NCBI GenBank assembly: GCA_000720535.1
Contig: JOAZ01000026.1
Location: 1-64,000 of the forward strand
DNA from: Streptomyces halstedii
GTDB taxonomy: Bacteria; Actinomycetota; Actinomycetes; Streptomycetales; Streptomycetaceae
DNA: 64,000 nucleotides
Direction: 5' to 3'
Shown: piece after piece, positions 15,921 to 42,406 of the stretch
Position numbering within the stretch: the first letter of the stretch is position 1
Layout of the letters: every line of letters starts with the position of its first letter
Notes under the pieces: model-generated
What the model was told of the DNA's origin: nothing
Database searches by the model: none
What the model saw: the letters and a program-made list of their open reading frames with translations, nothing else
Translations under genes and position numbers: made by a program

Positions 15921-15956
15921 TTCCGTATAGCAGAACACATTTTCCGTAATGTGGAA
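15921..15956. promoter_or_regulatory. Class A tandem operator at gcl
   Basis: Two 15-bp near-palindromes, TTCCGTATAGCAGAA (15921-15935) and TTCCGTAATGTGGAA (15942-15956), start exactly 21 bp apart. They begin 2 bp after the -10 box, so a bound repressor would cover the transcription start. The same two-site geometry recurs at hyi and at allR/allB. Confidence 0.7.
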
Positions 15957-16016
15957 ACAATGCTCTCAGGTGGCGCGACAGAGCCCGAATCCACCCTGTC
16001 CGAGCAGGAGTACTCC

Positions 16017-17801
16017 ATGCCCCGTATGACCGCTGCCCGCGCGGCAGTCGAGATCCTCAAGCGCGAAGGTGTGAGCAACGCGTTCGGTGTGCCGGGTGCG
16101 GCGATCAACCCCTTCTACGCGGCGCTCAAGGCCGCCGGCGGGGTGCGTCACACCCTGGCCCGCCACGTCGAGGGCGCCTCCCACATGGCGGAGGGCTACA
16201 CCCGCGCCGCCGCCGGGAACATCGGCGTCTGCATCGGTACGTCCGGCCCGGCCGGCACCGACATGATCACCGGCCTGTACTCCGCCATCGCCGACTCCGT
16301 GCCGATCCTCTGCGTCACGGGCCAGGCCCCGACGGCCGTGCTCCACAAGGAGGACTTCCAGGCGGTGGACATCGCGTCCATCGCCGCCCCGGTGACCAAG
16401 GCCGCCACGACGGTCCTGGAGGCCGCCCAGGTCCCCGGCGTCTTCCAGCGGGCCTTCCACCTCATGCGCACCGGACGGCCCGGCCCGGTCCTCGTCGACC
16501 TGCCCATCGACGTGCAGCTGACCGAGATCGAGTTCGACCCCGAGCTGTACGAGCCGCTGCCGGTGCACAAGCCCGCGGCGAGCCGCCGGCAGATCGAGCG
16601 CGCGCTCGACATGATGGAGGCCTCCGAACGCCCGCTCATCGTCGCGGGCGGCGGTGTCATCAACGCCGACGCCTGCGAACTCCTGGTGGAATTCGCTGAG
16701 TTGTCCGGAGTCCCGGTCGTCCCCACCCTGATGGGCTGGGGCATCCTCCCCGACGACCACGACCTCAACGCGGGCATGGTCGGCCTCCAGACCTCGCACC
16801 GCTACGGCAACGCGAACTTCCTGGAGTCCGACTTCGTCCTCGGCATCGGCAACCGCTGGGCCAACCGCCACACCGGCAGGCTCGACGTCTACACCGAGGG
16901 CCGCACCTTCGTCCACGTCGACGTCGAACCCACCCAGCTGGGCAGGATCTTCGCCCCGGACCTCGGCATCGCCTCCGACGCCCGCGCCGCGCTGGCCCTG
17001 TTCGTGGAGGTGGCCCGCGAACGCAAGGCGGCGGGCCCGCTGAAGGACCGCTCGGCGTGGGCGGCGTCCACCCAGGAGCGCCGGGCCGCGCTCCAGCGGC
17101 GGACCCACTTCGACCAGGTGCCGCTCAAGCCGCAGCGCGTCTACGAGGAGATGAACCGCGCCTTCGGACCGGAGACCCGTTACGTCACCACCATCGGCCT
17201 CTCCCAGATCGCCGGCGCGCAGATGCTCCACGTCTACCGGCCGCGCCACTGGATCAACTGCGGCCAGGCCGGCCCGCTGGGCTGGACCATCCCGGCCGCG
17301 CTCGGCGTCGCCACGGCCGACCCGGACGGCTCGGTCGTGGCACTCTCCGGCGACTACGACTTCCAGTTCATGCTGGAGGAACTGGCCGTCGGCGCCCAGC
17401 ACCGCATCCCGTACGTCCACGTGCTGGTGAACAACTCCTACCTGGGGCTCATCCGGCAGGCGCAGCGCGCCTTCGACATCGACTTCCAGGTCAACCTGGA
17501 GTTCGAGAACCTCAACTCCCCGGAGCTGGGCGCCTACGGAGTGGACCACGTCAAGGTCGTCGAGGGCCTCGGCTGCAAGGCCATCCGGGTCACGGAACCG
17601 GACCAGCTGCTGCCGGCGTTCGAGGAGGCGAAGAAGCTCGCGGCCGAACACCGGGTGCCGGTCGTGGTGGAGGCGATCCTGGAGCGGGTCACGAACATCT
17701 CGATGAGCGGGACGGACATCGCGTCGGTCAACGAGTTCGAGGAGCTGGCGACCGAGCCGGGCCACGCGCCCACGGCCGTCCGCCCGTTGACGGTGTCCTG
17801 A
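16017..17801 (+). CDS. gcl: Glyoxylate carboligase
   Basis: The 594-residue ThDP enzyme condenses two glyoxylate molecules to tartronate semialdehyde with loss of CO2. The N-terminal pyrimidine-binding domain has [20 protein letters not shown]. Glyoxylate carboligases characteristically lack the ThDP-activating Glu and carry a hydrophobic residue there. The central segment is [19 protein letters not shown]. The C-terminal PP domain has the ThDP/Mg motif [12 protein letters not shown] and [13 protein letters not shown]. The ATG at 16017 follows AGCAGGAG; an in-frame ATG at 15960 lies inside the operator pair and is unlikely. Products pass to the reductase and isomerase encoded by the operon at 19842-21594. 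Confidence 0.95.
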
Positions 17802-17827
17802 GCCGCCGCCACGCGCCCCGGTCCACG

Positions 17828-17879
17828 CGGCACCGGCCTCCACGACGGCCCCTGGCGGTCGTCGTGGAGGCCGGTGCCG
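17828..17879. terminator. Strong hairpin terminator after gcl
   Basis: A perfect 19-bp stem pairs 17828-17846 with 17861-17879 (outer bases CGGCACC...GGTGCCG) around a 14-nt loop. It lies 27 bp after the gcl stop. Confidence 0.8.
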
Positions 17880-18182
17880 TGTCCGGTGCCGCCCGCGCAC
17901 CGGTCCGGCCGCGCGGCGCGGTGCGGGGCCGGGACGGCGACGGCGCAACGGGGTGGGGCGCACGGATCTCTCCGTGCGCCCCACCCCGTTCTCGTCCTCA
18001 CGGCGACCGCGGCGGCGAGTGGCGGCCCGAGTGCGGTCCGGCCCCCTCAGGTCCGGGGCCGGGCCGCCGGGCCCTTCGCCACCGCACTGGCGTCCCCCGC
18101 CGCCGCGGTCCCGTCCTGACGGCGCCCCGCCGCACCCCTCATCCGGGTGCGCGGCGCCGCCAGGGCCCTGGGAAGGGAGGCG
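17880..18182. other. Gene-free region between gcl terminator and catalase
   Basis: The region contains the hairpin at 17947-17990 and C/G-rich low-complexity sequence up to the catalase stop. No plausible gene was found. Confidence 0.5.
17947..17990. terminator. 20-bp perfect stem with UCUC tetraloop
   Basis: The arms 17947-17966 and 17971-17990 are perfect complements (AACGGGGTGGGG... with ...CCCCACCCCGTT) around the loop TCTC. It is one of the strongest terminators in the window and probably isolates gcl from the convergent catalase. Confidence 0.8.
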
Positions 18183-19640
18183 TCAGTCCTCGCGCAGGGC
18201 GAGGACGGCCTCCTCCACGCGCGCGCCGTACTCGGGGTCGGCGGCGCGGAAGTGGGCGATGTTCTTCTCGATCACGTCGTCGCGGGTCACCCGCGAGAGG
18301 CCGCCCGCGATGGTGGCGATCAGCCGGTCCTTCTCGTCCGCCGACATCAGCCGGTAGAGCTCGCCCGCCTGGAAGAAGTCGTCGTCCTTCGGGTGCGCGG
18401 GCGACTCGTGCGTCCCGGTCCAGCCACGCACGGGGAGCGGGGCGGCCAGCGGCACCCCCGTCTGGGCGGGCCCGGCGTACGAGTTGGGCTCGTAGTTCTT
18501 GTCGTGGCGCGAGCCGTTGCGGGTGGCGTGCAGTCCGTCGCGCCCGTAGGTGTCGACGACGGGGGCCTTGGGCGCGTTGACCGGGAGCTGGGTGTGGTTG
18601 ATGCCGAGCCGGTAGCGCTGCGCGTCCGCGTACGCGAACAGCCGGCCCTGGAGCATCTTGTCCGGGGACGGGCCGATGCCGGGCACGAAGTTGTTCGGCG
18701 AGAACGCCGCCTGCTCGACCTCGGCGAACACGTTGTCCGGGTTGCGGTCCAGGACCAGGCGTCCCACCCGGCGCAGCGGGTGGTCCGCGTGCGGCCACAC
18801 CTTGGTGACGTCGAACGGGTCGAAGCGGTAGTCCGCCGCCTCGGCGGCCGGCATGACCTGGACGTACAGGGTCCAGGACGGGTTCACCCCGCGCTCGATG
18901 GCCTGGAGCAGGTCCGTCTGGTGCGAGGCGGCGTCCTGGCCGACGAGCTCGGCGGCCCGGTCCGAGTCCAGGGACCGCACGCCCTGGTTGGTCTTGAAGT
19001 GGTACTTGACGAAGAAGGCCTCGCCCTCCGCGTTCGTCCACTGGTAGGTGTGCGAGCCGTAGCCGTTCATGTGGCGGTAGGAGGCGGGGATGCCCCGGTC
19101 GCCCATCAGCCAGGTGACCTGGTGCGTCGCCTCGGGCGAGTGCGCCCAGAAGTCCCAGACGTTGTCCGGCTCCTGACGGCCTGTGAAGGGGTCGCGCTTC
19201 TGCGAGTGGATGAAGTCGGGGAACTTCACCGGGTCCTTGATGAAGAAGACCGGGGTGTTGTTGCCGACCAGGTCGTAATTGCCCTCGTCCGTATAGAACT
19301 TGAGGGCGAAGCCACGCGGGTCGCGTACGGCGTCGGCGCCGCCGAGGGAGTCCGCGACCGTGGAGAAGCGGATGAACGTCTCGGTGCGCCGGCCCACCTC
19401 GGACAGGAAGTCCGCGCGGGTGAGGCCGGTGACGTCGTCCGTCACCTCGAAGTAGCCGTACGCACCGGAGCCGCGGGCGTGCACCACGCGCTCCGGGACG
19501 CGCTCACGGTTGAAGCGGGCCAGCTTCTCCAGCAGATGCTGGTCCTGGAGGAGGAGCGGCCCGCCGGCGCCGGCGGTGGCGGAGTTCTGGTTGTCGGCGA
19601 CCGGGGCGCCTGACTCGGTGGTGAGCACACGCGGGGACAT
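18183..19640 (-). CDS. katA: Monofunctional haem catalase (clade 3)
   Basis: The 485-residue protein decomposes H2O2 in the cytoplasm. The catalytic His is in [16 protein letters not shown] (about residue 54), the distal Asn is in [14 protein letters not shown] (about 127), and the haem-ligand Tyr is in [14 protein letters not shown] near 340. The length fits small-subunit clade 3 catalases. The location between gcl and the hydroxypyruvate operon, and a class B operator shared with the uricase operon, indicate that it removes peroxide made by uricase. Its promoter is TTGACG-N18-TACGCT. Confidence 0.95.
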
Positions 19641-19677
19641 GGAGACCTTCCGTACGGGGGCTGCTGACGGCCTGAGG

Positions 19678-19719
19678 AGCGTAGGTTCGGCACGAACAGC
19701 GCGTCAACAGTTTGTTGAA
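19678..19719 (-). promoter_or_regulatory. Catalase promoter with class B operator over the -35
   Basis: On the minus strand the -35 is TTGACG (19707-19702) and the -10 is TACGCT (19683-19678), spaced 18 bp. The 17-bp palindrome TTCAACAAACTGTTGAC (19719-19703) overlaps the -35 box. The identical 17-mer is in the uricase operon promoter. Confidence 0.7.
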
Positions 19720-19841
19720 TTCGGAGTGAGTGGTTCCGGGCCGTGGCGGCGCCTGGGCGCGACAGGACAGGTGTCAGCGACGCCACGGCCCGGAGTTCGG
19801 GGGCCCTGGGACCAGGGCGGGGCCCGTACGGGCCCGGGGTG

Positions 19842-20735
19842 TCAGACGGGGGAGCCGGAGAGGCGTTCGACCGAGCGCAGCAGCGCCGAGTGGTCCAGCC
19901 CGCCGTCGCCCTGGGCGCGCAGGGAGGCGACCAGCTGGGCCACGACCGCGCCGACGGGCAGCGCGGCGCCGACGTCGCGGGCGGCTTCCGTGACGATCCC
20001 CATGTCCTTGTGGTGCAGGTCGATCCGGAAGCCCGGGGCGAAGTCCCGCTTCAGGAAGTTGTCCCTCTTACGGGCCAGGACCGTCGAGCCGGCCAGTCCG
20101 CCGGCCAGGACGTCGAGCGCGGCGCCCAGGTCCACCCCGGACTTCTCCAGGAAGACCACGGCCTCGGCGCACGCCTGGATGTTGACCGCGACGATGAGCT
20201 GGTTGGCGGCCTTGACCGTCTGGCCGGAGCCGTGCGGTCCGCACCGCACGACGGTCCTGCCGAGCGCCTCCAGCAGCGGGCGGGCCGCGTCGAAGTCCGC
20301 CTGCTCGCCGCCGACCATGATGGAGAGCACGGCCTCGATCGCGCCGGCCTCGCCGCCGGAGACCGGGGCGTCCAGCACCCGGATGCCCTTGGCCTTCGCG
20401 TTCCCGGCCAGGTCCACGGAGGTCTGCGGGGTGATCGACGACATGTCGATCAGCAGGGCGCCGGCCTTCGCGTTCTCCAGGATGCCGTCCGGACCGTAGG
20501 CGACCGCCTCGACCTGCGGGGAGGCGGGGACCATGGTGACGACGACGTCGGCGTCGCGGACGGCCTCGGCGACCGAGGCGGCACCCCTGCCGCCCGCGGC
20601 GACCAGCCGGTCCACCTTGGCCTGCTCCAGGGTGTGACCGGTGACGTCGTACCCGGCCTTGATCAGGTTCTCCGACATGGGCGAGCCCATGATGCCGAGC
20701 CCGATCCAGGCGACCTTGGGGAGGTTGCTGCTCAT
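19842..20735 (-). CDS. glxR: 2-hydroxy-3-oxopropionate (tartronate semialdehyde) reductase
   Basis: The 297-residue beta-hydroxyacid dehydrogenase reduces tartronate semialdehyde, the Gcl product, to D-glycerate with NAD(P)H. The Rossmann motif is VAWIGLGIMGSPMSENLIKAG. The substrate-binding DAPVSGGEAGA and the catalytic-lysine segment GSGQTVKAANQLIV are intact. It is downstream of hyi with only 37 bp between them, so the two form one operon under the class A-controlled hyi promoter. Confidence 0.93.
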   Translation of the reverse strand: MSSNLPKVAWIGLGIMGSPMSENLIKAGYDVTGHTLEQAKVDRLVAAGGRGAASVAEAVRDADVVVTMVPASPQVEAVAYGPDGILENAKAGALLIDMSSITPQTSVDLAGNAKAKGIRVLDAPVSGGEAGAIEAVLSIMVGGEQADFDAARPLLEALGRTVVRCGPHGSGQTVKAANQLIVAVNIQACAEAVVFLEKSGVDLGAALDVLAGGLAGSTVLARKRDNFLKRDFAPGFRIDLHHKDMGIVTEAARDVGAALPVGAVVAQLVASLRAQGDGGLDHSALLRSVERLSGSPV

Positions 20736-20772
20736 GAGGGTGCCTTCCGGTGAGAGCGTGTGGGGGCGGGGG

Positions 20773-21594
20773 TCAGGCGGGGAGCCAGCCGAAGGACTCC
20801 GCGCTCGGCCGGTCGCCCGGCTTGTACTCCAGGCCGACGTGGCCCGTGTAACCGGCGTCGGCCAGCTCGTCCAGCAGCCGTTCCAGCGGGAGCGAGCCGG
20901 TGCCCGGCGCGCCGCGCCCCGGGTTGTCGGCGATCTGGACGTGGCCGGTCTTGGCGGCGTACGCCGTGATGGCCTGGCCGAGGTCCTCGCCGTTCATGGA
21001 CAGGTGGTAGAGGTCCAGCAGGAACTTCGCGTTGCCGAGCCCCGTCGCCGCGTTGACCCTGTCCACGACCTCGATCGCGGCCGGCGCGCTCACCAGGGGA
21101 TAGTGCGGTGACTCCGGGGCGTTGAGGGCCTCGATCAGCAGGGTGGCCCCGATGCCGTGGGCCGCGTGGGCCGCCAGGACCAGGTTCTCCAGGGCGAGTT
21201 CGTCCTGCGCGGCGGGGTCGGTGCCCTCCACGCGGTTGCCGTAGAGCGCGTTGAGCGCCCGGCAGCCGACCGAGGCGGCGAACGCGGTCGCCACCTCGAC
21301 GTTGGCGCGGAACCGGTCCGACTCGGCGCCCGGCACGGAGAGCGCCCCGCGGTCGGGGCCGGGCAGCCGCCCGGCGTAGAAGTTCAGTCCCACCAGCTGG
21401 GTGCCGGCGTCGTCGAGCGCCCGCTTGAGGGCGTCCAGCTCGGCCTGGCCGGGGGTGGGGGTCTCGATCCAGGGCCACCACAGCTCGACCGCCGAGAAAC
21501 CGGCCGCGGCGGCGGCCGCGGGTCGCTCCAGGAGCGGGAGTTCCGTGAAGAGGATCGAAAGGTTCACATCGAAGCGCTGGTCCGGGTATCCCAT
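20773..21594 (-). CDS. hyi: Hydroxypyruvate isomerase
   Basis: The 273-residue TIM-barrel protein of the AP-endonuclease-2/xylose-isomerase-like family interconverts tartronate semialdehyde and hydroxypyruvate. The family core (RFDVNLSILFTELPLLERPAAA, VELWWPW, LIEALN, LLDLYHLSMNGED, VQIADNPGRGAPGTG, GLEYKP) includes the metal-binding Glu, Asp and His residues. The ATG at 21594 starts the conserved N-terminus. The nearest Shine-Dalgarno (GGAAGGAG) is 13 nt upstream and overlaps the operator. It is first in the operon with glxR. Confidence 0.92.
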   Translation of the reverse strand: MGYPDQRFDVNLSILFTELPLLERPAAAAAAGFSAVELWWPWIETPTPGQAELDALKRALDDAGTQLVGLNFYAGRLPGPDRGALSVPGAESDRFRANVEVATAFAASVGCRALNALYGNRVEGTDPAAQDELALENLVLAAHAAHGIGATLLIEALNAPESPHYPLVSAPAAIEVVDRVNAATGLGNAKFLLDLYHLSMNGEDLGQAITAYAAKTGHVQIADNPGRGAPGTGSLPLERLLDELADAGYTGHVGLEYKPGDRPSAESFGWLPA

Positions 21595-21611
21595 GAGGGG
21601 TTCGGCGCTCC

Positions 21612-21647
21612 TTCCGTATTGCGGAAGTTTGTTTCTGCTCAACGGAA
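21612..21647. promoter_or_regulatory. Class A tandem operator at hyi-glxR
   Basis: Read on the plus strand, TTCCGTATTGCGGAA (21612-21626, a perfect palindrome) and TTCTGCTCAACGGAA (21633-21647) are 21 bp apart, exactly as at gcl. The proximal site overlaps the hyi ribosome-binding site, so occupancy could affect both transcription and leader geometry. Confidence 0.7.
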
Positions 21648-21676
21648 GATTGCATGGCGGTCGGTCAGGCTGTCAA
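21647..21676 (-). promoter_or_regulatory. hyi-glxR promoter (-35 TTGACA, -10 CAATCT)
   Basis: On the minus strand a consensus TTGACA (21676-21671) and CAATCT (21652-21647) are 18 bp apart. The class A operator pair starts right at the downstream edge of the -10 box, mirroring gcl. Confidence 0.6.
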
Positions 21677-21858
21677 GGGGGGTACCCGAAAGCGCGGGCC
21701 GCGAGGGGCCGCCCCGCGGGGGCCGGGCCCGCCCTTTCCCCGGCTTTCCCCGCCTCCGGCCCAGGTCCGTGCGGCCCGGATGCGGCAGGGCCCGGCGGAT
21801 ACAGTCGGTGGCCGGGCGGCGGGACGCGCGCCCGTGGCAAGGACATCAGGGAGGCACC

Positions 21859-22110
21859 GTGCGCTTGAGGGTGGAATTCACCACCGAGCCCTTCGATCTG
21901 GACGAGGCACCCGCCCATGCCGTGGTGGCCCGGGAGGTCGTCCAGGCGGCCGATCTCGACGCCGTGGACGTGGGCCCCTTCGGCAACACCGCGGAGGGTG
22001 GTGCCGACCAGGTGCTCACCGCGGTGGACCGTCTGCTGCGCGAGGCCCTGGCCTCCGGGGCCACCCGGGTCTCGCTCCAGCTGAACGTGATCGGGGAGGA
22101 CCTCCCGTGA
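21859..22110 (+). CDS. Small MTH1187/YqgV-like (thiamine-binding superfamily) protein
   Basis: This 83-residue protein follows the pattern of the MTH1187/YkoF superfamily: an initial strand (LRVEFTTEPFDL), helix, VGPFGNTAEGGADQVLTAVD, which resembles the GT..EG..D.V motif, then GATRVSLQLNVI. These ferredoxin-like proteins bind thiamine or related small ligands. Gcl, close by, depends on ThDP, but no direct link is shown. The GTG at 21859 follows GGGAGG. Its stop overlaps the next start (GTGA), so it is coupled to the helix-turn-helix gene. It is divergent from hyi. Confidence 0.6.
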   Translation: MRLRVEFTTEPFDLDEAPAHAVVAREVVQAADLDAVDVGPFGNTAEGGADQVLTAVDRLLREALASGATRVSLQLNVIGEDLP

Positions 22111-22484
22111 CCGAACCGGTGGACCATCCCCTGGTCGCCGCGGTGAAGCCGCTCGTCGACGCCATGGGTGCCGAACTGCTCGGCCCCGACCAGGCCCAGG
22201 CCGACGACGTGGTGCTCGACTGGGAGGGGGAGGCGGTCCTGGCCGTACGGCTGCCGCAGCTCTCCGACTCGCTCGACCACATCCTGGCCGCGATGGAACG
22301 GCGGCACGGGATGCCGCTCGCCGAGCTGGACCGCAAGACCAAGCAGGGTGTCGTGCGGGCCCTGGAGGCGCGCGGCGCCTTCTCCGTGCGCCACGGCGTG
22401 GAGACCGTGGCCGGCGCCCTGGGGGTCAGCCGGTTCACGGTGTACAACTACCTGAACCGGGAGCACGCGGCCCAGGGGGAGTAG
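22107..22484 (+). CDS. Helix-turn-helix regulator, DauR/YheO-like C-terminal domain
   Basis: The 125-residue protein has an N-terminal alpha/beta region (about 1-70) that may be a small ligand-binding or dimerisation fold. The C-terminal domain is a helix-turn-helix: KTKQGVVRALEARGAFSVRH, then VETVAGALGVSRFTVYNYLNRE. This matches the DNA-binding module of YheO/DauR-type regulators. It is coupled to the preceding MTH1187-like gene and sits 160 bp upstream of the uricase operon. That makes it a candidate second regulator for the class B operators, but this is inferred from position only. Confidence 0.7.
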   Translation: MTEPVDHPLVAAVKPLVDAMGAELLGPDQAQADDVVLDWEGEAVLAVRLPQLSDSLDHILAAMERRHGMPLAELDRKTKQGVVRALEARGAFSVRHGVETVAGALGVSRFTVYNYLNREHAAQGE

Positions 22485-22555
22485 CCCCGGCCCGCTCGTC
22501 CCCCTCGATGCCGTCGTCCCCGTCCGGGGGCGGCGGCATCGCCCGTTCATGGAAT

Positions 22556-22597
22556 TTCAACAAACTGTTGACGTCGTGTGGTGAAGGGCGTTAGCTA
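22556..22597 (+). promoter_or_regulatory. Uricase operon promoter with class B operator
   Basis: The palindrome TTCAACAAACTGTTGAC (22556-22572) overlaps the -35 TTGACG (22568-22573). The -10 is TTAGCT or TAGCTA (22591-22597) at 17-18 bp spacing. The operator is identical to the one at katA. Confidence 0.7.
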
Positions 22598-22642
22598 TCC
22601 GCAGCCCGACAACGCACAGCGAAATAGGCCACGGAGGCTCCC

Positions 22643-23149
22643 GTGACTACGAGCTCCACACCGGGCCTCGCCCGGTTCAACACCCAGGCGGCCCACGAGG
22701 CCGCCGCCGCGCTGCACGAGGTGTGTGCGAGCGAACGGTGGGGGAGCGCGCTCCTCTCCCGACGGCCCTACGCCACCGCGGACGACCTCTTTCTGGCCAG
22801 TGACGCCGCCACGGCGGAGCTGTCCGGGAAGGACCTGGACGAGGCGATGGCCGGGCACCCGCCGATCGGCCGTCCCACACCCGGAGACCCGACGTCCGCC
22901 CGCGAACAGCGGGGAATGGCGGGAGCGTCCGACGCACTCAGGGCGCGGATGCTCGAACTCAACCTGGCCTACCAGGAGCGGTTCGGACACGTCTTCCTGA
23001 TCTGCGCCACCGGAGCCACCGGTGAGCGGATGCGCGAGGCGCTGGAGGACCGGATCGGCAACCCGCCCGAGCGGGAACGCGAGATCGTCCGCACCGAGCT
23101 GGGCAAGATCAACCGCATCCGGCTGGCCCGCCTGGTGCGGGACGCCTGA
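22643..23149 (+). CDS. uraD: 2-oxo-4-hydroxy-4-carboxy-5-ureidoimidazoline decarboxylase
   Basis: The 168-residue OHCU decarboxylase carries out the third step from urate and yields S-allantoin. The catalytic His is in AGHPPIGRP (about residue 72). The family signatures RFNTQAAHEAAAALHEVCAS, FNLAYQERFGHVF-like LNLAYQERFGHVFLIC, and the C-terminal ELGKINRIRLARLV are present. The GTG at 22643 follows CACGGAGG. It is the first gene of the urate operon (uraD, uraH, uricase), downstream of a class B-controlled promoter. Confidence 0.93.
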   Translation: MTTSSTPGLARFNTQAAHEAAAALHEVCASERWGSALLSRRPYATADDLFLASDAATAELSGKDLDEAMAGHPPIGRPTPGDPTSAREQRGMAGASDALRARMLELNLAYQERFGHVFLICATGATGERMREALEDRIGNPPEREREIVRTELGKINRIRLARLVRDA

Positions 23150-23187
23150 AGAACCCCTACACGCGGGACGCCTGAAGACCCCGTACA
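23137..23187. repeat. 25-bp tandem duplication spanning the uraD stop
   Basis: A unit beginning GCGGGACGCCTGAAGA occurs at 23137-23161 and 23163-23187 with two differences. The first copy contains the last uraD codons and stop, so the second copy is a duplicated, untranslated gene end. The rest of the 117-bp gap to uraH is GC-rich low-complexity sequence. Confidence 0.75.
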
Positions 23188-23266
23188 GCACCGCGAACAC
23201 CGCGCCGCGCGAACACAGCGCCGCGCGGAACGCGGCACACCGCAGAGAACAAGGAGCGTGACGGTC

Positions 23267-23659
23267 TTGAGCACCGACACCACCGCATCGGTGTCCACCC
23301 ACGTCCTGGACACCAGCACCGGACGTCCCGCCGAAGCCGTCGCCGTCTCCCTGGCCGCCCGCGGCGGCGACGCCGAGCCGTACACGACGCTCGGCGCGTC
23401 CACGACCGACGCGGACGGGCGCTGCACAGACCTGCCGGCCCTGCCGGAAGGAACCACCCACGTACGGCTCGTCTTCGACACCGGGTCGTACTTCGCCAGC
23501 GAGAACCAAGCCGAGGCGCAGCAGGACGCCCCCCGCGTAAGGGACAGCGGCGCGTTCTTCCCGGAGGTGGCGATCGCGTTCGCCGTCACCCCGGGCGAGC
23601 ACTACCACGTACCGCTGCTGCTCAACCCGTTCGGCTACTCCGTTTACCGAGGGAGCTAG
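23267..23659 (+). CDS. uraH: 5-hydroxyisourate hydrolase (transthyretin-like)
   Basis: The 130-residue protein hydrolyses 5-hydroxyisourate, the uricase product, to OHCU. It has the N-terminal catalytic His segment STHVLDTSTGRPA, the central Arg in HVRLVFD and the hallmark C-terminal YRGS tetrapeptide. The TTG at 23267 is preferred because AAGGAG lies about 10 nt upstream. A GTG at 23258 is possible but leaves only one base after the Shine-Dalgarno. Its stop is 7 bp before the uricase start. Confidence 0.92.
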   Translation: MSTDTTASVSTHVLDTSTGRPAEAVAVSLAARGGDAEPYTTLGASTTDADGRCTDLPALPEGTTHVRLVFDTGSYFASENQAEAQQDAPRVRDSGAFFPEVAIAFAVTPGEHYHVPLLLNPFGYSVYRGS

Positions 23660-23666
23660 CAGACAG

Positions 23667-24599: not shown

Positions 24600-24610
24600 C
24601 GGCCCCGGCC

Positions 24611-32279: not shown

Positions 32280-32284
32280 CCGGA

Positions 32285-34408: not shown

Positions 34409-34416
34409 GCGGGCCC

Positions 34417-34457: not shown

Positions 34458-34467
34458 CGAGGAGGCG

Positions 34468-36087
34468 TCAGCGCAGCCGCTCGTACGCCGGGAGCGTCAG
34501 GAAGTCCGCGTAGTCCTCGTCCAGGGAGACCTGGAGCAGCAGGTCGTGGGCCTGCTGCCACTTCCCGGCGGCGAAGGCCTCCTCGCCGATCTCGGCCCGG
34601 ACGGTGGCCAGTTCCTCGGCCGCGACCGTACGGGCCAGCTCCGCCGTGGCGTGCTCGCCGTTCTCGAAGACCACGTCCGCGTTGATCCACTGCCAGATCT
34701 GCGAGCGGGAGATCTCCGCGGTGGCCGCGTCCTCCATCAGGTTGAAGATGGCGACCGCGCCCATGCCGCGCAGCCACGCCTCGATGTAGCGGATGCCGAC
34801 CGCCACGGCGTTGCGCAGGCCGTCGTACGAGGGCTTGGCGTCCAGGGTGTCGACGGCGATCAGGTCGCCCGCCGCCACCGAGACGTCCTCGCGCAGCCGG
34901 TCCTTCTGGTTCGGCTTGTCGCCGAGGACCGCGTCGAAGGAGGCCATCGCGATCGGGACCAGGTCCGGGTGGGCGACCCAGGAGCCGTCGAAGCCGTCGT
35001 TCGCCTCGCGGTCCTTGTCGGCCTTGACCTTCTCGAAGGCGACCTTGTTGACCTCGGCGTCGCGCCGCGAGGGGATGAAGGCGGCCATGCCCCCGATGGC
35101 GTGCGCCCCGCGCTTGTGGCAGGTGCGGACCAGGAGTTCGGTGTACGCCCGCATGAACGGGGCCGTCATCGTGACCAGGTTGCGGTCCGGCAGGACGAAC
35201 TTGGACCCGCCGTCACGGAAGTTCTTGACGATGGAGAAGAGATAGTCCCAGCGACCCGCGTTCAGCCCCGAGGCGTGGTCGCGCAGCTCGTAGAGGATCT
35301 CCTCCATCTCGTAGGCGGCGGTGATCGTCTCGATCAGGACGGTCGCGCGGACCGTGCCCCGCGGGATGCCGACGTAGTCCTGGGCGAAGACGAAGACGTC
35401 GTTCCAGAGGCGGGCCTCCAGGTGCGACTCCGTCTTCGGGAGGTAGAAGTAGGGGCCCTTGCCGAGGTCGATCAACCGCTGCGCGTTGTGGAAAAAGTAC
35501 AGGCCGAAGTCGACCAGGGCGCCGGGCACCGGGGTGCCGTCGAGCTGGAGGTGGCGCTCGTCCAGGTGCCAGCCGCGCGGGCGGGTGACGACGGTCGCCA
35601 GCTCCTCGGCGGGCTTCAGCGCGTACGCCTTGCCGGACCGGGGGTCGGTGAAGTCGATGTTCCGGGTGTAAGCGTCGATCAGGTTGAGCTGGCCGGTGAC
35701 CACGTTCTCCCAGGTGGGGGCGGACGCGTCCTCGAAGTCGGCGAGCCAGACCCGGGCGCCGGAGTTCAGCGCGTTGATGGTCATCTTGCGGTCGGTCGGA
35801 CCGGTGATCTCCACCCGGCGGTCCTCCAGCGCGGCCGGGGCCGGGGCGACCTTCCAGGTGTCGTCCACCCGGATCGCCTGCGTCTCGGGCAGGAAGTCCA
35901 GGGTGGAGGTGCGGGCGATCTCGGCGCGGCGCTCGGTCCGGCGGGCGAGCAGCTCGTCACGCCGGGGCGTGAACCGCCGGTGCAGCTCGGCCACGAACGC
36001 GAGGGCCGCGTCGGTCAGGACCTCGTCCTGCCTCGGCAGGGGCTCGGCGTCGACGATGGCCAGCGGGGACGGCGCTGGTGCGGACAT
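34468..36087 (-). CDS. aceB: Malate synthase A
   Basis: The 539-residue isoform A malate synthase condenses glyoxylate and acetyl-CoA to malate. Visible signatures are TRPRGWHLDERHLQLDG (substrate-binding Arg), LPKTESHLEARLWNDVF, VLIETITAAYEMEEILYEL (Mg-binding Glu), and the C-terminal NLMEDAATAEISRSQIWQW with the catalytic Asp. It is a glyoxylate sink alternative to Gcl. Its promoter carries both operator classes of the ureide system, which marks it as a purine/ureide-responsive malate synthase. Confidence 0.95.
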   Translation of the reverse strand: MSAPAPSPLAIVDAEPLPRQDEVLTDAALAFVAELHRRFTPRRDELLARRTERRAEIARTSTLDFLPETQAIRVDDTWKVAPAPAALEDRRVEITGPTDRKMTINALNSGARVWLADFEDASAPTWENVVTGQLNLIDAYTRNIDFTDPRSGKAYALKPAEELATVVTRPRGWHLDERHLQLDGTPVPGALVDFGLYFFHNAQRLIDLGKGPYFYLPKTESHLEARLWNDVFVFAQDYVGIPRGTVRATVLIETITAAYEMEEILYELRDHASGLNAGRWDYLFSIVKNFRDGGSKFVLPDRNLVTMTAPFMRAYTELLVRTCHKRGAHAIGGMAAFIPSRRDAEVNKVAFEKVKADKDREANDGFDGSWVAHPDLVPIAMASFDAVLGDKPNQKDRLREDVSVAAGDLIAVDTLDAKPSYDGLRNAVAVGIRYIEAWLRGMGAVAIFNLMEDAATAEISRSQIWQWINADVVFENGEHATAELARTVAAEELATVRAEIGEEAFAAGKWQQAHDLLLQVSLDEDYADFLTLPAYERLR

Positions 36088-36222
36088 GAGCTGTCACTCC
36101 TTCAGCGAGGTGGTGCGGCGGCCGCCGGGTCGCCCGGTACGGCACGGGGTGCCAGGGCTCCGAGATACGGCGAGAGATGCCGACCGGGTCCGGAAGCGGA
36201 ACCATGGGCTTCTGATCAGTGG

Positions 36223-36263
36223 ATATTAGTTTCCTCATGGTGGAAGTTCAATGGTTTGTTGAC
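36223..36263 (-). promoter_or_regulatory. aceB promoter with both operator classes
   Basis: On the minus strand the -35 is TTGAAC (36251-36246) and the -10 is TAATAT (36228-36223), spaced 17 bp. The class A palindrome TTCC-N7-GGAA (36231-36245) fills the spacer. The class B palindrome (36247-36263, TTCAATGGTTTGTTGAC on the plus strand) covers the -35 and upstream. Transcription would start near 36216, giving a leader of about 130 nt. Confidence 0.7.
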
Positions 36264-36340
36264 ATCGAGATTCTCCTGGTCGACAGAGCCCGCCGTGTGA
36301 TGGCGCACCGTGCCACGACGGACACGGTCCGTCCCCCCGC

Positions 36341-36946
36341 TCATTCCAGGTGCTTCAGGTCCTGTGCCGTGTCGATGTCGAAGGGCCGGGCCACGTCCGA
36401 GCAGTCCACGAGCACGACCGCGTCGCGATGCGCCCGCAGATACGCCCGCGCCCCCTGGTCGCCGACCGCTCCCGCCCGGATGTCCGCCCACCGGTCGGCG
36501 CCGAACAGCACCGGATGGCCGCGCTCCCCGTCGTACGACGCGGCCGCCAGCGCCGAGCGCGAGCGGCAGGCCGACCGCACGCGCGCCACCGCCTCCGCGC
36601 CGATGCCGGGCTGGTCCACCAGCAGGACGAGCGCCGCGTCCACCTCCCCGCCGTCGAGCGCCGCGAGTCCGGCCCGCAGCGAGGAGCCCATGCCCTCCTC
36701 CCACGCCGGGTTCTCGCTCACCGTGCACCCCGCCAGGTCCGCCCTCGCCCGCACCTCCGGCGCCGCGGCGCCGATCACCACATGGACGGGGCCACAGCCT
36801 CCGTCGCGCAGCGCCCGCGCCGCGTGTTCGACCAGGGGGCGGCCGCGGTGCTCCAGCAGCGCCTTCGGCCGGCCGCCGAGCCTGCGCCCGCCGCCCGCGG
36901 CGAGCAGCACCCCCGCGACCACCGGAATCCGTCGTGTCTGAGCCAT
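36341..36946 (-). CDS. Molybdenum-cofactor cytidylyltransferase-like NTP transferase
   Basis: The 201-residue MobA-like nucleotidyltransferase has the N-terminal signature VLLAAGGGRRLGGRPKALLE, the metal-binding LVLLVDQPGIG and a GERGHPVLFGADRW block. This pattern fits MocA, which makes molybdopterin cytosine dinucleotide for xanthine dehydrogenase-type enzymes. Location next to aceB in the purine region supports that reading, although no xanthine dehydrogenase is in the window. A sugar-nucleotide role is less likely. The ATG at 36946 starts the domain. Confidence 0.8.
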   Translation of the reverse strand: MAQTRRIPVVAGVLLAAGGGRRLGGRPKALLEHRGRPLVEHAARALRDGGCGPVHVVIGAAAPEVRARADLAGCTVSENPAWEEGMGSSLRAGLAALDGGEVDAALVLLVDQPGIGAEAVARVRSACRSRSALAAASYDGERGHPVLFGADRWADIRAGAVGDQGARAYLRAHRDAVVLVDCSDVARPFDIDTAQDLKHLE

Positions 36947-37146
36947 GCGCCCTGGATACCACCGGGCGTTCACCGAGGCGACGGGCGCCGCACCCCGCGC
37001 GCCCTGGTCAATTGTGTCCGCACAGTGGCGCTCTGCGCCCGTCATGGCGTTAACTTGCCTGCACCCCTGGGCACTTGACCACTCCTTGGGGACGGCTCGA
37101 CCTGGTCGCGACACCGGCACGAAGACGTGCGAGGGGGAGTGCTTTG

Positions 37147-37458
37147 TTGCGGAGCGTGGGACAGAAGAGAGCGACCGGCGGCGACGTGGACCCGAGGGTG
37201 GCCGCACTGCGGACAGCCGTCTCCCGGCTCCGGCGCGAGCTGGCCGGACACCCCGCGGAGTTCCCGGACCGGGGCATCGCGGAGGACGAACTCGCGGCGC
37301 TGGACGCCATGGCCATCGGCGGCGCCCCCGAGATCCCCCGGCTGCGGCGCTCCCTGCTCCTGGTCGCGGGGTCGATCGGCTCGGTCAGCGCGCTGGCACC
37401 CGGGCTGCGGGACGTACGGATCGCCGTGGACCTCTTCGGGGAGCCGCCGCGTCGGTGA
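37147..37458 (+). CDS. DUF5955-like conserved Streptomyces protein
   Basis: The 103-residue protein has a helical N-terminal half (VDPRVAALRTAVSRLRRELA) and a more hydrophobic C-terminal half (SLLLVAGSIGSVSALAPGLRDVRIAVDLFG). I recognise it as a conserved Streptomyces protein of unknown function. TTG codons at 37144 and 37147 both follow GAGGGGGAG; the second has better spacing. No enzymatic motif is present. Confidence 0.65.
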   Translation: MRSVGQKRATGGDVDPRVAALRTAVSRLRRELAGHPAEFPDRGIAEDELAALDAMAIGGAPEIPRLRRSLLLVAGSIGSVSALAPGLRDVRIAVDLFGEPPRR

Positions 37459-37513
37459 GGCGTGACCCGGCCGGGCCCACGGGGGACAGGTCCACGGGTG
37501 ACGCGCCGGGCCG

Positions 37514-38146
37514 TCAGCGGCGGATCAGCCTGCGCGCCGTGGCCGCGGCGACCGCCGACGTACGCGAGTCGACGCCCAGCTTCGCGTAGATGTGCACCAG
37601 ATGGGACTTCACCGTGGCCTGGCTCAGGAAGAGCCGCTTGCTGATCTGCTGGTTGGACAGGCCCTCGCCCACCAGCTGGAGCACTTCCAGCTCCCGCTTG
37701 GTCAACGCCTGGGCGGGTGTCCGCATCCGGTCCATGAGGCGGTGCGCGACCGCCGGGGCGAGCGCCGAGCGGCCCGCCGCCGCCGTCCGCACGGCGGCCG
37801 CGAGCTCCTCCGGGGGCGCGTCCTTGAGGAGATAGCCGCCCGCGCCCGCCTCGACGGCGGTCAGGATGTCGGCGTCCGACTCGTACGTGGTGAGGATCAG
37901 GACCCGGGGGGCGTCCGGTGCCGCCGTGATCGCCGCGGTGGCCTCCGCGCCGTGCATACCGGCGCCGAACTGGAGGTCCATCAGCACGACGTCGAACCCG
38001 CCGGTCGCGGCCAGGGCCACGGCCCGTTCCGCGGTCGCGGCCTCCGCCACCACCTCGAAGTCCGGTTCGGCGTCCAGCACCGCGCGCAGACCGGCCCGGA
38101 CCACCGGGTGGTCGTCGGCGAGCAGCAGTCTGATCGGGTCGCTCAT
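37514..38146 (-). CDS. NarL/FixJ-family response regulator
   Basis: The 210-residue regulator has a receiver domain (acidic pair Asp11/12, phospho-acceptor Asp57 in [10 protein letters not shown], Thr in ILTTYES, Lys in [10 protein letters not shown]). The LuxR-type DNA-binding domain includes [20 protein letters not shown] and [19 protein letters not shown]. Its start overlaps the sensor kinase stop by 4 bp, so the pair is coupled. The divergent ABC exporter is the obvious target. Confidence 0.93.
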
Positions 38147-39408
38147 GCGGCGTCCTCCTGATCCACGGCGGCCGGGAGCGGCAGCGTCACGGCGACCGCC
38201 GTGCCCTGCCCCGGCGCCGACTCCACGCTGAGCGTGCCGCCCAGCGAACGCGCCCGCGCCCGCATCGCGGGCAGCCCGAAGCCGCCGGACGGCTCGGTAC
38301 CGCCGGTCCCGGGCCCGTCCGTCCCGCCACAGCCGGGCTCATGGCCCACGGCGCCCCGGTCGCCACGCGGCGCGGACGGGTCGAAGCCCCGCCCGTCGTC
38401 CACCACGTCCAGGGAGACCGAGGTCTCCATGAAGCTCAGGGTGATCCCGGCCCGCCGCGCACCCGAGTGCCGCACGGTGTTGGCCAGCGCCGACTGCGCC
38501 GTACGCAGCAGCGCGACCTCGTACGGGGTGGGCAGCTCCACCGGGGTGCCGCTGACCGCGCACCGCACGGACAGGTCCGGCGTCGAGGTGCGCGAGGCCA
38601 GCCGGGACAGGGCCGCGGCCAGGGACCCGTGCTCCAGGTCCGGCGGCGACAGCGCCCGTACGAAGCGGCGGGCCTCGGCCAGGTTCTCCTGGGCCGCCTC
38701 GCGGGCCCGGCGCACGTGGACGACGGCCGGGGCGTCCTCGGGCAGGGTGCGCTCGGCGGCCCGCAGCAGCAGGTGGATGCTGGACAGGCCCTGGGCCAGG
38801 GTGTCGTGGATCTCCCGGGCCAGCCGCTCCCGTTCGGCGAGGGTGCCCGCGGTGCGGCCGGCGGCGGCCAGCTCGGCACGGGTGGCGACCAGTTCCTCGA
38901 TCAGCTCGCGGCGCCGTTCGCTCTCCCGGAACAACGCGTCGTAGCCGAGGACGGTGGCGACGGCCACCGCCGCGCCGAGCAGCGGCCCGATGAACGTACC
39001 CGGTGTGACCCCCTGCCCGTGCAGTACGAAGCTGGTGATCGCCGCCGCCGCCGTGACCACCACGGCGGGCAGGCCCCAGCGCACCGGGAGCAGGTGCAGC
39101 TGGAGGAAGTAGAGCGGGAAGGCCACCCACAGCGCGTCGGGCGACACCGCGAGCAGCGCCAGCCACAGGGCCCCCAGCGCGGCGAGCCAGCCGGCGGCCG
39201 CCCGGGTGTACGGCTGCACGAAGGGGGCCGGCGCGCCCGCCCCGTACAGCGCGGCCATCACCGCCGCGAGCACGACGACCGCCGTGCCGTGCGGGACCCC
39301 CTCGGTCACCGCGCGGACCACCACCAGCGCCAGCAGCCCGATCAGCAGCGCGTGCAGACAGAGCCGCAGGGCGGTGGCGACGGGGGTGGCGTGGGCGGAT
39401 GAGTCCAT
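38143..39408 (-). CDS. Sensor histidine kinase (HisKA_3, NarX/DesK type)
   Basis: The 421-residue membrane kinase has about five to six helices within residues 15-155, with only short extracytoplasmic loops. A HisKA_3 dimerisation domain follows with His201 in [20 protein letters not shown]. The HATPase_c domain has N-box [14 protein letters not shown]1 DDGRGFDPS and [13 protein letters not shown] Gly-rich insertion lies in the ATP lid (about 355-380). The lack of a large sensor domain suggests it senses membrane stress or a lipid-soluble drug. It is coupled to the response regulator. Confidence 0.92.
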
Positions 39409-39518
39409 GGTCCCTCCAGCGTAGACGCGGGGCGGGCGGCGCCGGTCAACCGAAAGGTTGATGTCGGGCCCGTCCGGCGCGCGATGTCCGCGCGGGCCGG
39501 AAAGCCGAGGCTGGAGCC

Positions 39519-40598
39519 ATGTTCGTCGCATGGAGAGACCTACGGTTCGCCAAGGGGCGGTTCGCCCTCATGGGCACCGTCGTCGTACTGATCACGCTGC
39601 TCGTCGGGATGCTGTCCGGGCTGACGGCGGGCCTCGGGAAGGAGAACACCTCGGCCGTCACCGGCCTCAGCGCGGACCGCATCGCGTTCGCCGCCCCGCC
39701 GGACGGCCGGTCGGAGTCGTTCACCGACTCGTCCGTCCCACAGGACGCCTGGCGCGCCTGGGCCGAGCGCCCCGGGGTCACCGCCGCCGAACCCCTCGGC
39801 ATCCGCACACTGAACGCCGCCGCCGACGACGGGAAGCGCACCGCCGCGGTCTCCGCCTTCGGCGTCGAACCGGACGGCGGGCTCGCCCCCGGCACGGTCG
39901 CCCCCGGCACGGTCGTCCTCTCGGAGCAGGCCGCCGACGAGCTGGGCGCCGCGGCCGGTGACACGCTCGCCCTGGCCGGTACGGACGTGACGGTCGGCGC
40001 GGTCGCGGGCGACGCCTCGTACAGCCACACCCCGGTCGTCTGGACCTCCCTCGCCGACTGGCAGCGCCTCTCGGGCACCGAGGGGCAGGCCACCGTGATC
40101 GCCCTGAGGACCACCGGCGACGCCGATCTCGCGGCCGGGGACAAGGCGGCGGGGACCCGCACCCTCACCCTCGACGAGTCCCTGGGCGCCATCGGCTCCT
40201 ACCAGGCCGAGAACGGCTCGCTCCAGCTGATGCGGGCCTTCCTCTTCGCGATCTCCGCGCTGGTCATCGGCGCCTTCTTCACCGTCTGGACGATCCAGCG
40301 CAGCGGCGACGTCGCCGTGCTCAAGGCGCTGGGCGCCTCGACGCCGTACCTCCTCAAGGACGCGCTGGGCCAGGCCGTCGTGATGCTCGCCGCCGGTACG
40401 GCCGTGGGCACCGGGCTCGCCGCGGGCATCGGCGCGCTGGTCGGCGGGGACGGCGGCGCCGTGCCGTTCGTCCTGGACGCCTCGACCGTGCTGGTACCGG
40501 CCGCGGTCATGATCGTCCTCGGTGCGCTCGGGGCCGCCCTGTCCATCCGGCGCATCACCGCCGTCGATCCGCTCACCGCACTCGGGAGTACCCGATGA
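39519..40598 (+). CDS. ABC transporter permease, MacB/FtsX type
   Basis: The 359-residue protein has one N-terminal helix (about 15-38) and a soluble extracytoplasmic domain at about 40-235. Three C-terminal helices contain the FtsX-like core (VWTIQRSGDVAVLKALGAST). This is the four-helix topology of MacB-type permeases, which power export or envelope processes mechanically. Its stop overlaps the ATPase start (ATGA). It is divergent from the two-component system across 110 bp, which fits inducible export of an antimicrobial. Confidence 0.9.
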   Translation: MFVAWRDLRFAKGRFALMGTVVVLITLLVGMLSGLTAGLGKENTSAVTGLSADRIAFAAPPDGRSESFTDSSVPQDAWRAWAERPGVTAAEPLGIRTLNAAADDGKRTAAVSAFGVEPDGGLAPGTVAPGTVVLSEQAADELGAAAGDTLALAGTDVTVGAVAGDASYSHTPVVWTSLADWQRLSGTEGQATVIALRTTGDADLAAGDKAAGTRTLTLDESLGAIGSYQAENGSLQLMRAFLFAISALVIGAFFTVWTIQRSGDVAVLKALGASTPYLLKDALGQAVVMLAAGTAVGTGLAAGIGALVGGDGGAVPFVLDASTVLVPAAVMIVLGALGAALSIRRITAVDPLTALGSTR

Positions 40599-41275
40599 CC
40601 CTCACCCTGACCGATGTCACCCTCACCTACCCCGACGGCGACGCCCGGCTCACCGCGCTCGACCACGTCTCGCTGGAGGTCCCGGCCGGGACCCTGACCG
40701 CCGTCGTCGGACCGTCCGGTTCCGGCAAGTCGAGCCTGCTCGCGGTCGCCGCGACCCTGGTCACCCCGGACCGGGGGCGGGTCGTGGTGGCCGGTACGGA
40801 GACCGCGGGACTCAGCCGCTCGGAGAAGACGGACCTGCGCCGGGAGCGCATCGGCATCGTCTTCCAGCAGCCGAACCTGCTGCCGTCGCTGACCGCCGCC
40901 GAGCAGCTCCAGGTGATGGCGCACCTGTCGGGCGGTTCGGTACGGGACGCCCGGATCCGGGCGCTGGACCTGCTGGACGCGGTCGGGCTGGCGGACAAGG
41001 CGGACCGCAGGCCCCACCAGTTGTCCGGCGGCCAGCGCCAGCGTGTCAACATCGCGCGGGCCCTGATGAACGAGCCCGCCGTCCTGCTCGTCGACGAGCC
41101 GACCAGCGCGCTCGACCACGAACGCGGCGCGGCCGTCCTGGACCTCCTGCTCGGCCTGACCCGGGAGCGGTCCACGGCCACCGTCCTGGTCACCCACGAC
41201 CGGGCCCACCTGGACCGGGTGGACGGGACGGCGACGATGAACGACGGCCGCCTGGCGGTGCCCGCTCCGGCCTGA
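40595..41275 (+). CDS. ABC transporter ATP-binding protein, LolD/MacB type
   Basis: The 226-residue ATPase carries Walker A (VGPSGSGKSSLLAVAATLV), the Q-loop (IGIVFQQPNLLPSLTAAEQL), signature LSGGQRQRVNIARAL, Walker B VLLVDEPTSALD and the H-loop VLVTHDRAH. It is the partner of the preceding permease. No clear terminator hairpin was found in the 116 bp before the convergent IclR gene. Confidence 0.93.
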   Translation: MTLTLTDVTLTYPDGDARLTALDHVSLEVPAGTLTAVVGPSGSGKSSLLAVAATLVTPDRGRVVVAGTETAGLSRSEKTDLRRERIGIVFQQPNLLPSLTAAEQLQVMAHLSGGSVRDARIRALDLLDAVGLADKADRRPHQLSGGQRQRVNIARALMNEPAVLLVDEPTSALDHERGAAVLDLLLGLTRERSTATVLVTHDRAHLDRVDGTATMNDGRLAVPAPA

Positions 41276-41391
41276 CCCGCGCCCCGGCCTGAATCCGCCG
41301 GTCCGCCCCGTCCCCGGCTGCCGCCGCCCCGGTCCGTCCGCTCCGGCCTGACCCCGCCCGGCGGATTCCGGGGGCGGCGGGCCGTCCGGGC

Positions 41392-42195
41392 TCAGCCCGT
41401 CGGGCCGCCGCTGCTCGCCAGCGCCTCGGAGAGCTCCTTGGCGACCTGCTGGAGGATCGGCACGATCCGCTCCGTCGCCGCCTCCGTCACCCGGCCCGCC
41501 GGGCCCGAGATGGAGATGGCGGCCGACGTGGGGGAGTCGGGGACCGGGACCGCGAGGCAACGGACCCCGATCTCCTGCTCGTTGTCGTCCACGGCGTAGC
41601 CCGCACGGCGCACCTGCTCCAGCGCGTCCAGGAAGCCGTCCGGCGTGGTGATCGTCTTGTCGGTGGCCGCGGGCATGCCCGTACGGGCCAGCAGCGCGCG
41701 CACCTCGTCCGCCGGGGTGTGCGCCAACAGCGCCTTGCCGACGCCCGTGGAGTGCGGCAGCACCCGGCGGCCCACCTCCGTGAACATCCGCATCGAGTGC
41801 TTCGACGGCACCTGCGCGACGTACACGACCTCGTCGCCGTCGAGCAGGGCCATGTTCGCCGTCTCGCCCGTCTCCTCGACCAGCCGCTGGAGGTACGGAC
41901 GCGCCCAGGTGCCCAGCAGCCGGGACGCCGACTCGCCGAGCCGGATCAGCCGCGGCCCCAGGGCATAGCGGCGGTTGGACTGCTGGCGGACGTACCCGCA
42001 CAGCACCAGGGTGCGCATCAGCCGGTGGATGGTCGGCAGGGGGAGGCCGCTGCTCGCGGAGAGTTCGCTGAGACCGACCTCGCCCCCGGCGTCCGCCATA
42101 CGCTCCAGCAGGTCGAAGGCACGTTCGAGGGACTGCACCCCTCCGCCGGAGCCGGAGGGCTTGGAGTCGGAAGTGCTGGCGTGGGACGACGGCAC
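41392..42195 (-). CDS. allR: IclR-family repressor, AllR-like
   Basis: The 267-residue regulator has an N-terminal winged helix at about 20-80 (VQSLERAFDLLERMADAGGEV, LPLPTIHRLMRTLVLCGYV). The IclR effector domain follows at about 95-255 (ALLDGDEVVYVAQVPSKHSM, VLPHSTGVGKALLA, GYAVDDNEQEIGVRCLAVPV). It is divergent from allantoinase. In Streptomyces coelicolor an IclR protein in this position, AllR, represses allantoin genes, so the same role is inferred here. A class A tandem operator lies across its likely promoter (-10 TAGAAT), which suggests autoregulation. Confidence 0.88.
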   Translation of the reverse strand: MPSSHASTSDSKPSGSGGGVQSLERAFDLLERMADAGGEVGLSELSASSGLPLPTIHRLMRTLVLCGYVRQQSNRRYALGPRLIRLGESASRLLGTWARPYLQRLVEETGETANMALLDGDEVVYVAQVPSKHSMRMFTEVGRRVLPHSTGVGKALLAHTPADEVRALLARTGMPAATDKTITTPDGFLDALEQVRRAGYAVDDNEQEIGVRCLAVPVPDSPTSAAISISGPAGRVTEAATERIVPILQQVAKELSEALASSGGPTG

Positions 42196-42362
42196 GTCAA
42201 CGGTCCTTTCGAAGCGGAGGCAAGGCAGCAGCCTACCGGGCCGCTCCGGATCGGCCCACTGCTCCCGGTGCGGCGTCCTTGCCGGTCAGGCCCTGCTTTG
42301 TCCCGGTGTCAGGCGGTCGGGTCGCCGGGGCCGCCGAGGTCCGGTGACGCCGTTGCTGGACC

Positions 42363-42406
42363 ATTCTACGTTCCGTATGGCGAAAGAGGGCTTCTACTTC
42401 GTGGAA
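42363..42406. promoter_or_regulatory. allR -10 and class A tandem operator
   Basis: A minus-strand TAGAAT (42368-42363) is the probable allR -10. Immediately upstream are two 15-bp class A sites, TTCCGTATGGCGAAA (42371-42385) and TTCTACTTCGTGGAA (42392-42406), again 21 bp apart though individually degenerate. They would cover the allR spacer and -35 and lie upstream of the allB promoter. Confidence 0.6.

Follow-up and report, generated by a model that had tools for sequence, protein, structure and literature searches.

Introduction

Escherichia coli AllR and IclR repress glyoxylate/allantoin and glyoxylate-bypass genes, and their DNA binding is weakened by glyoxylate (PMC11323563); their motifs are given as KTTGGAAWAWTWTTCCAAC and TGGAAATNATTTCCA in Table 1 of PMC8222616. 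In the latter study, Suvorova and Gelfand (2021) describe tandem palindromes of IclR-family regulators in 94 orthologous groups, with 18-22 nucleotides (nt) between centres, attribute them to tetramers bound to one face of the DNA, and give the group-1 consensus as GKTYCRYW3-4RYGRAMC. BhcR of Paracoccus denitrificans is a glyoxylate-responsive protein of this family encoded divergently from its target operon, and AllR control of allantoin genes has been reported for Streptomyces coelicolor (cited in PMC12772271). Here we examine paired palindromes, termed class A, in 64,000 nt of high-GC (about 72% GC) Streptomyces halstedii DNA (assembly GCA_000720535.1, contig JOAZ01000026.1, positions 1 to 64,000; hereafter the window). 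We take the IclR-family protein encoded at 41392-42195 to be Streptomyces AllR, a name that follows the S. coelicolor regulator encoded divergently from allB, and we consider it highly probable that this protein has the class A pair as its operator, to which it would bind as two dimers on one DNA face.

Four class A pairs in the window

The initial annotation of this stretch, made by inspection of the sequence, described a 15-base-pair (bp) consensus recurring as three pairs, at 15921/15942 (gcl), 21612/21633 (hyi) and 42371/42392 (allR/allB). All six sites lie at these coordinates, with an offset (pitch) of 21 bp within each pair, and the consensus has 10 matches in the window at up to three mismatches against 2.2 expected, a number reached by none of 100 shuffled sequences. 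Overlooked at that stage was a fourth, weaker pair in the aceB promoter, at 36210/36231. The four pairs, the proposed regulator and the genes concerned are as follows.

15921..15956, plus strand: class A paired operator of gcl, TTCCGTATAGCAGAA-CACATT-TTCCGTAATGTGGAA (profile scan, conservation)
21612..21647, minus strand: class A paired operator of hyi, TTCCGTTGAGCAGAA-ACAAAC-TTCCGCAATACGGAA (profile scan, conservation)
42371..42406, minus strand: class A paired operator between allR and allB, TTCCACGAAGTAGAA-GCCCTC-TTTCGCCATACGGAA (profile scan, refined pattern)
36210..36245, minus strand: fourth, degenerate class A pair in the aceB promoter, TTCCACCATGAGGAA-ACTAAT-ATCCACTGATCAGAA (profile scan, conservation)
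41392..42195, minus strand: AllR, IclR-family regulator and proposed class A binder (PF09339, PF01614)
16017..17801, plus strand: gcl, glyoxylate carboligase (TIGR01504, 1177.6 bits, above cut-off)
20773..21594, minus strand: hyi, hydroxypyruvate isomerase family (TIGR03234, 302.2 bits, below the cut-off of 353.45)
19842..20735, minus strand: glxR, 2-hydroxy-3-oxopropionate reductase, downstream of hyi (TIGR01505, 474.7 bits, above cut-off)
34468..36087, minus strand: aceB, malate synthase A (TIGR01344, 844 bits, above cut-off)
42486..43844, plus strand: allB, allantoinase; the start may be 42492 (TIGR03178, 608.8 bits, above cut-off)

For scoring we used a symmetrised 15-bp position profile derived from the gcl and hyi pairs of Streptomyces genomes, own genome included, with the allR/allB and aceB pairs kept out of the training set, and scanned the window at seven pitches (19, 20, 21, 22, 23, 31 and 32). 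At pitch 21 the scores were 49.5 for gcl, 42.9 for hyi, 36.2 for allR/allB and 18.0 for aceB, followed by -8.0 for the next candidate; the best score at the other six pitches was 8.8. The four pitch-21 pairs are thus clear of everything else in the window, and all lie at glyoxylate/allantoin genes. Each is built of palindromes of the group-1 type, and their spacing falls inside the 18-22 nt range of IclR-family tandem operators. The aceB pair is the least regular; its two sites have profile scores of 3.8 and 14.2, and the second site is weak.

Specificity of the 36-bp pattern

A refined 36-bp directional pattern covering both sites, allowed up to three mismatches, matched 86 of 101 Streptomyces genomes (the genus sample, own genome included), and the same pattern reversed, which served as the control, matched none. 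The S. halstedii genome holds three matches, all in the window, the degenerate aceB pair falling below threshold; the proposal that the pattern is common across the genome was rejected on this count. Among the matches listed are 130 distinct places. Sequence identity puts 127 of them in front of gcl (60 places), hyi (64) or allR (3); the other three comprise two in G017, which are upstream of gcl and hyi by coordinates, and one unassigned place in G001, on another contig. The genome scan that the initial annotation had named as a check, on whether the paired pattern is common and unrelated to ureide genes, therefore finds it rare and nearly confined to gcl, hyi and allR. Single sites behave differently: at up to two mismatches the 15-bp consensus has 66 forward and 84 reverse matches genome-wide (palindromes counted twice) vs 14 and 26 for the reversed pattern. 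The single-site consensus is unspecific, and specificity lies in the pair alone.

Conservation within Streptomyces

In the genus sample, gcl was found in 82 genomes, hyi in 90, aceB in 99 and an AllR homologue (E <= 1e-60) in 99. The best-scoring pair had pitch 21 in 77 of 82 upstream regions of gcl and in 85 of 92 of hyi, a gene present twice in two of the genomes. Among the gcl exceptions, G017 and G001 were mis-extracted, the gene being near a contig end, and G017 does have the pair by coordinates; G048 scored at pitch 28, yet its pitch-21 pair is present in the pattern scan; and the upstream-region profile scan found no gcl pair in G088 or G073. The hyi exceptions are G017 (mis-extracted), the second copies in G086 and G090, which lack a pair, G048 and G051, which scored at other pitches, and G092 and G073, which scored at pitch 20 with a T run that makes the register ambiguous. 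By comparison, the same procedure applied to 522 Markov-resampled regions yielded 67 pairs at many different pitches, three of them at 21. The start codon lies at a distance of 28 to 160 from the pair at gcl and of -2 to 222 at hyi; because this distance varies so widely, the fixed pitch does not simply reflect frozen sequence.

The two pairs outside the training set are also conserved. Upstream of aceB, pitch 21 was best in 28 of the 30 closest Streptomyces relatives, the exceptions being G021 and G085 (the latter mis-extracted). Between allR and allB it was best in 30 of 36 regions from the genus genomes (the 30 closest plus 6 divergent ones, drawn from the 99 with AllR) and in 76 of 79 regions of a second set, consisting of the 80 loci with the closest AllR genes (79 of 80 from Streptomyces) after L099 had been dropped for having too little upstream sequence. 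In the first set the exceptions are G030, G037, G043, G055 and the mis-extracted G072 and G099; in the second they are L086, L102 and L095.

AllR and the pair outside the genus

A class sample of 394 genomes (40 Streptomyces and 354 outside the genus) contained the 36-bp pattern in 47 genomes; the reversed control matched once, in G450. Among the non-Streptomyces genomes the pattern occurs in 14 of 354 and an AllR homologue (E <= 1e-70) in 83 of 354, including all 14, a co-occurrence with a Fisher probability of 6e-10, uncorrected for kinship. These 14 genomes hold 15 places with the pattern, 12 of which lie in stretches of 8-13 kilobases (kb) that also encode homologues of AllR, Hyi, AceB, AllB or uricase. 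The pair is flanked by AllR and hyi in L407 and by AllR and aceB in L411. It stands near AllR in L412 and L419; before hyi in L409, L410 and L414; before aceB in L415 to L418; and inside a uricase/OHCU-decarboxylase cluster in L408.

We also examined loci selected by protein rather than by motif, namely 60 of the 86 non-genus AllR matches, taken mostly in score order; some loci fetched earlier were skipped, and some genomes with pattern matches elsewhere were included. A scorable pair was present in 33 of the 60, and 21 was the best of 31 pitches in 31 of these 33 and second in the other two. Thirty of the 31 pitch-21 pairs lie at most 400 bp upstream of AllR (27), hyi (2) or aceB (1), leaving one, in L460, without a known neighbour. 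No other evidence speaks as strongly as these protein-chosen loci for AllR as the partner of the operator and for selection of the 21-bp spacing. The protein at 41392-42195, which the initial annotation had put forward as the leading candidate, thus keeps that place, given AllR in 14 of 14 pattern-bearing genomes outside the genus and pairs before the AllR gene in other families.

Several observations weigh against this assignment. The pattern is absent from 15 of the 101 genus genomes, and AllR is so nearly universal there (99 of 101) that co-occurrence within the genus is uninformative. G050 has a hyi pair and no AllR was found in its assembly, which is 82% complete. A natural knock-out was sought among the Streptomyces of the class sample; the two without AllR, G257 and G371, also lack hyi and are not clean knock-outs. 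Outside the genus, 69 of the 83 genomes with AllR have no pattern match, and 27 of the 60 protein-chosen loci have no scorable pair under the Streptomyces-trained profile. Three of the 15 places, in L405 (6340), L406 (6548) and L413 (6631), have no homologue of AllR, Hyi, Gcl, AceB or AllB in the 13 kb examined; their genomes carry AllR elsewhere. Finally, the allR/allB pair lies upstream of the inferred -35 element of allB, an unusual location for an allB repressor.

The putative AllR protein

The window protein matches PF09339 with 64.8 bits and PF01614 with 153.8 bits, both above the gathering scores, which places it in the IclR family, and its gene is divergent from allB. It does not reach the NCBIfam cut-offs for E. 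coli-type AllR (NF007548, 125.9 bits against 406), E. coli-type IclR (NF008601, 171.9 against 380) or BhcR (NF045644, 206.4 against 350), the last being its best NCBIfam match all the same. According to Table 1 of PMC11323563, the glyoxylate oxygens are contacted in E. coli IclR by Gly160, Asp212, Ser239 and Ser241; all four are kept in the window protein, as we read the alignment. The pocket differs in having Val for Ala161 and, in its hydrophobic patch, Ser for Leu143, Val for Leu154 and Val for Leu220.

Promoter architecture

The promoter elements below were read from the sequence and are putative.

15889..15894, plus strand: gcl -35 hexamer TTGACG, 18 bp before the -10
15913..15918, plus strand: gcl -10 hexamer TAGATT, 2 bp before the operator
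21671..21676, minus strand: hyi -35 hexamer TTGACA, 18-bp spacer
21647..21652, minus strand: hyi -10-like hexamer CAATCT, 1-bp overlap with the operator
36246..36251, minus strand: aceB -35 TTGAAC
36223..36228, minus strand: aceB -10 TAATAT (TACTAT in many relatives)

The pair had been described as beginning within 2 bp of the -10 box at both gcl and hyi. This describes gcl, where the gap is 2 bp; at hyi the pair overlaps the last base of the putative -10 (21647-21652). The start of a TTGAC motif precedes site 1 by 30-32 bp in 72 of 77 relatives at gcl and by 28-30 bp in 84 of 85 at hyi, so that operator and putative promoter move together. At aceB, site 1 lies inside the 17-bp spacer of the predicted promoter and the -10 overlaps the 6-bp spacer of the pair. 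The allR/allB pair had been placed over the probable allR promoter; it is upstream of allR, more precisely between the divergent promoters, with the refined directional pattern matched on the minus strand, and it ends 18 bp upstream of the putative allB -35.

A GGTAGGCT block lies near the allR start codon, on the minus strand of 42195-42370, and is kept in 34 of the 36 allR regions of the genus genomes (the other two are mis-extracted) and in 68 of the 79 of the second set. This block may be the real -10 of allR, besides the TAGAAT that adjoins the operator.

The window also contains a second palindrome type, class B (TTCAACAATTCGTTGAA and relatives), at 42456-42472 (plus strand; inferred allB start), 36247-36263 (minus strand; over the aceB -35), 19703-19719 (upstream of katA) and 22556-22572 (upstream of uraD). 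Three of these four places match within three mismatches, as no shuffled sequence does, and the aceB copy was read by eye. At up to one mismatch the class B pattern matches all 101 genus genomes, many of the matches looking like chance. At allR/allB a class B site (up to one arm mismatch) is kept in 31 of the 36 genus-genome regions and in all 79 of the second set.

Proposed mechanism

We propose that two AllR dimers, probably forming one tetramer, occupy the two 15-bp palindromes. Since 21 bp between equivalent points corresponds to two helical turns, both sites would face the same side of the DNA. At the gcl and hyi promoters the pair begins where the -10 ends and would cover the transcription start, blocking initiation; at aceB it would be threaded through the -35 and -10 elements; and at allR/allB, upstream of both genes, it would most likely serve autoregulation of allR. 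Release of AllR by a pathway intermediate would then switch on Gcl-GlxR-Hyi, malate synthase and allantoin breakdown together. The S. coelicolor AllR is reportedly an IclR-family repressor of allantoin and glyoxylate genes, hyi among them, that binds their promoters; it is said to be released by allantoate and, to a lesser degree, by glyoxylate.

At gcl and hyi the two copies of the pair are unequal. All 77 gcl relatives carry A at position 12 of the first copy, and all 77 carry G at that position of the second; at hyi, 83 of 85 have A in the first and 85 of 85 have G in the second. With hardly an exception, therefore, first copies at these two promoters end in A-GAA and second copies in G-GAA. 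The 6-bp spacer tends to be TA-rich and is partly conserved, with ACTAAC, GTTAGT and ACTAAT recurring across promoters and families. At aceB and in many allR regions (several clades) G comes first and A second, and direction may therefore depend on promoter position. A tentative extension, to which we give somewhat less than even weight, is that the 36-bp element acts as one composite directional operator, in which an asymmetric AllR tetramer bends or grips the spacer and a weak and a strong dimer site are tuned for sharp release. The element would then represent a glyoxylate switch of ancient actinobacterial origin, constant at the gene of its own regulator and mobile between hyi, gcl and aceB.

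Alternative readings

The best-surviving alternative concerns allR/allB, where the pair might be an activator site for allB or serve autoregulation only, with allB repressed through the class B palindrome at 42456-42472. The gap between the pair and the putative allB -35, together with the position of class B at the inferred allB start and its retention across the allR/allB regions, would suit this arrangement. On the other side, repression by the S. coelicolor homologue has been reported (PMC12772271), and a tetramer bound upstream could still repress allB. We regard the arrangement as plausible, if the less probable of the two.

It is also conceivable, though unlikely, that AllR dimers bind each 15-bp site independently, the pitch reflecting no more than room for two neighbouring dimers, which would neither cooperate nor form a tetramer. 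Both dimeric and tetrameric binding occur in the IclR family, and the Streptomyces family member GylR is a dimer in solution that binds an 18-bp palindrome (PMC9732521). The class A pitch, however, is nearly constant over four promoters and several families despite changes in spacer sequence, which favours a geometric link between the dimers.

Far less probable is that class A is bound, instead of by AllR, by a small regulator encoded divergently from hyi.

22107..22484, plus strand: small HTH_22 protein between hyi and uraD (domain match)

Its gene adjoins the hyi pair upstream of uraD, and the protein was found in 39 of the 40 Streptomyces of the class sample, in two of them only weakly (E about 1e-7). 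Outside the genus it is present in 10 of 354 genomes at E <= 1e-6, and it was matched in three of the 14 pattern-bearing genomes (G146, G407 and, weakly, G401) vs 14 of 14 for AllR. No match at E <= 1e-3 was found in the stretches surrounding the 15 non-genus places, nor at the 60 AllR loci from outside the genus, and the class A sites are IclR-shaped. The HTH_22 protein was accordingly rejected as an unlikely class A binder, its matches in pattern genomes being few and none lying near the non-genus sites; it is one candidate for the regulator of class B. Chance alignment of unrelated AT-rich palindromes at 21 bp, for which nothing was found in favour, is ruled out for practical purposes by the shuffles, the reversed control, the 31-pitch comparison and the conservation.

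Comparison with known systems

The paired motif is selective enough for the glyoxylate/allantoin regulon to be located by sequence alone in most Streptomyces, and it adds aceB in the window. With its conserved pitch and fixed A/G asymmetry it offers a clean test case for an IclR-family tetramer on two unequal sites. Expression of hyi reportedly influences antibiotic production in S. coelicolor, which would lend the switch practical interest. A literature search mostly limited to open-access papers, and weak for that reason, found no description of a paired AllR operator in Streptomyces; the 'AllR' of FK506 papers (e.g., PMC4606968) appears to be an unrelated namesake.

The class A pairs are an example, in this genome, of a known type of switch, and the regulon has very probably been reported before. 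Their consensus fits the group-1 consensus of PMC8222616, minus its outer G and C, and their spacing agrees with the tandem operators of that study, from which they differ in having a pitch of almost strictly 21 bp and copies that are distinguished at one fixed position at gcl and hyi. E. coli AllR and IclR act on comparable genes, but the window protein falls far short of the NCBIfam cut-off of either. BhcR of P. denitrificans, a glyoxylate-responsive member of the family, resembles it in divergent gene order, and differs in serving another pathway and in that one potential palindromic site has been described for it.

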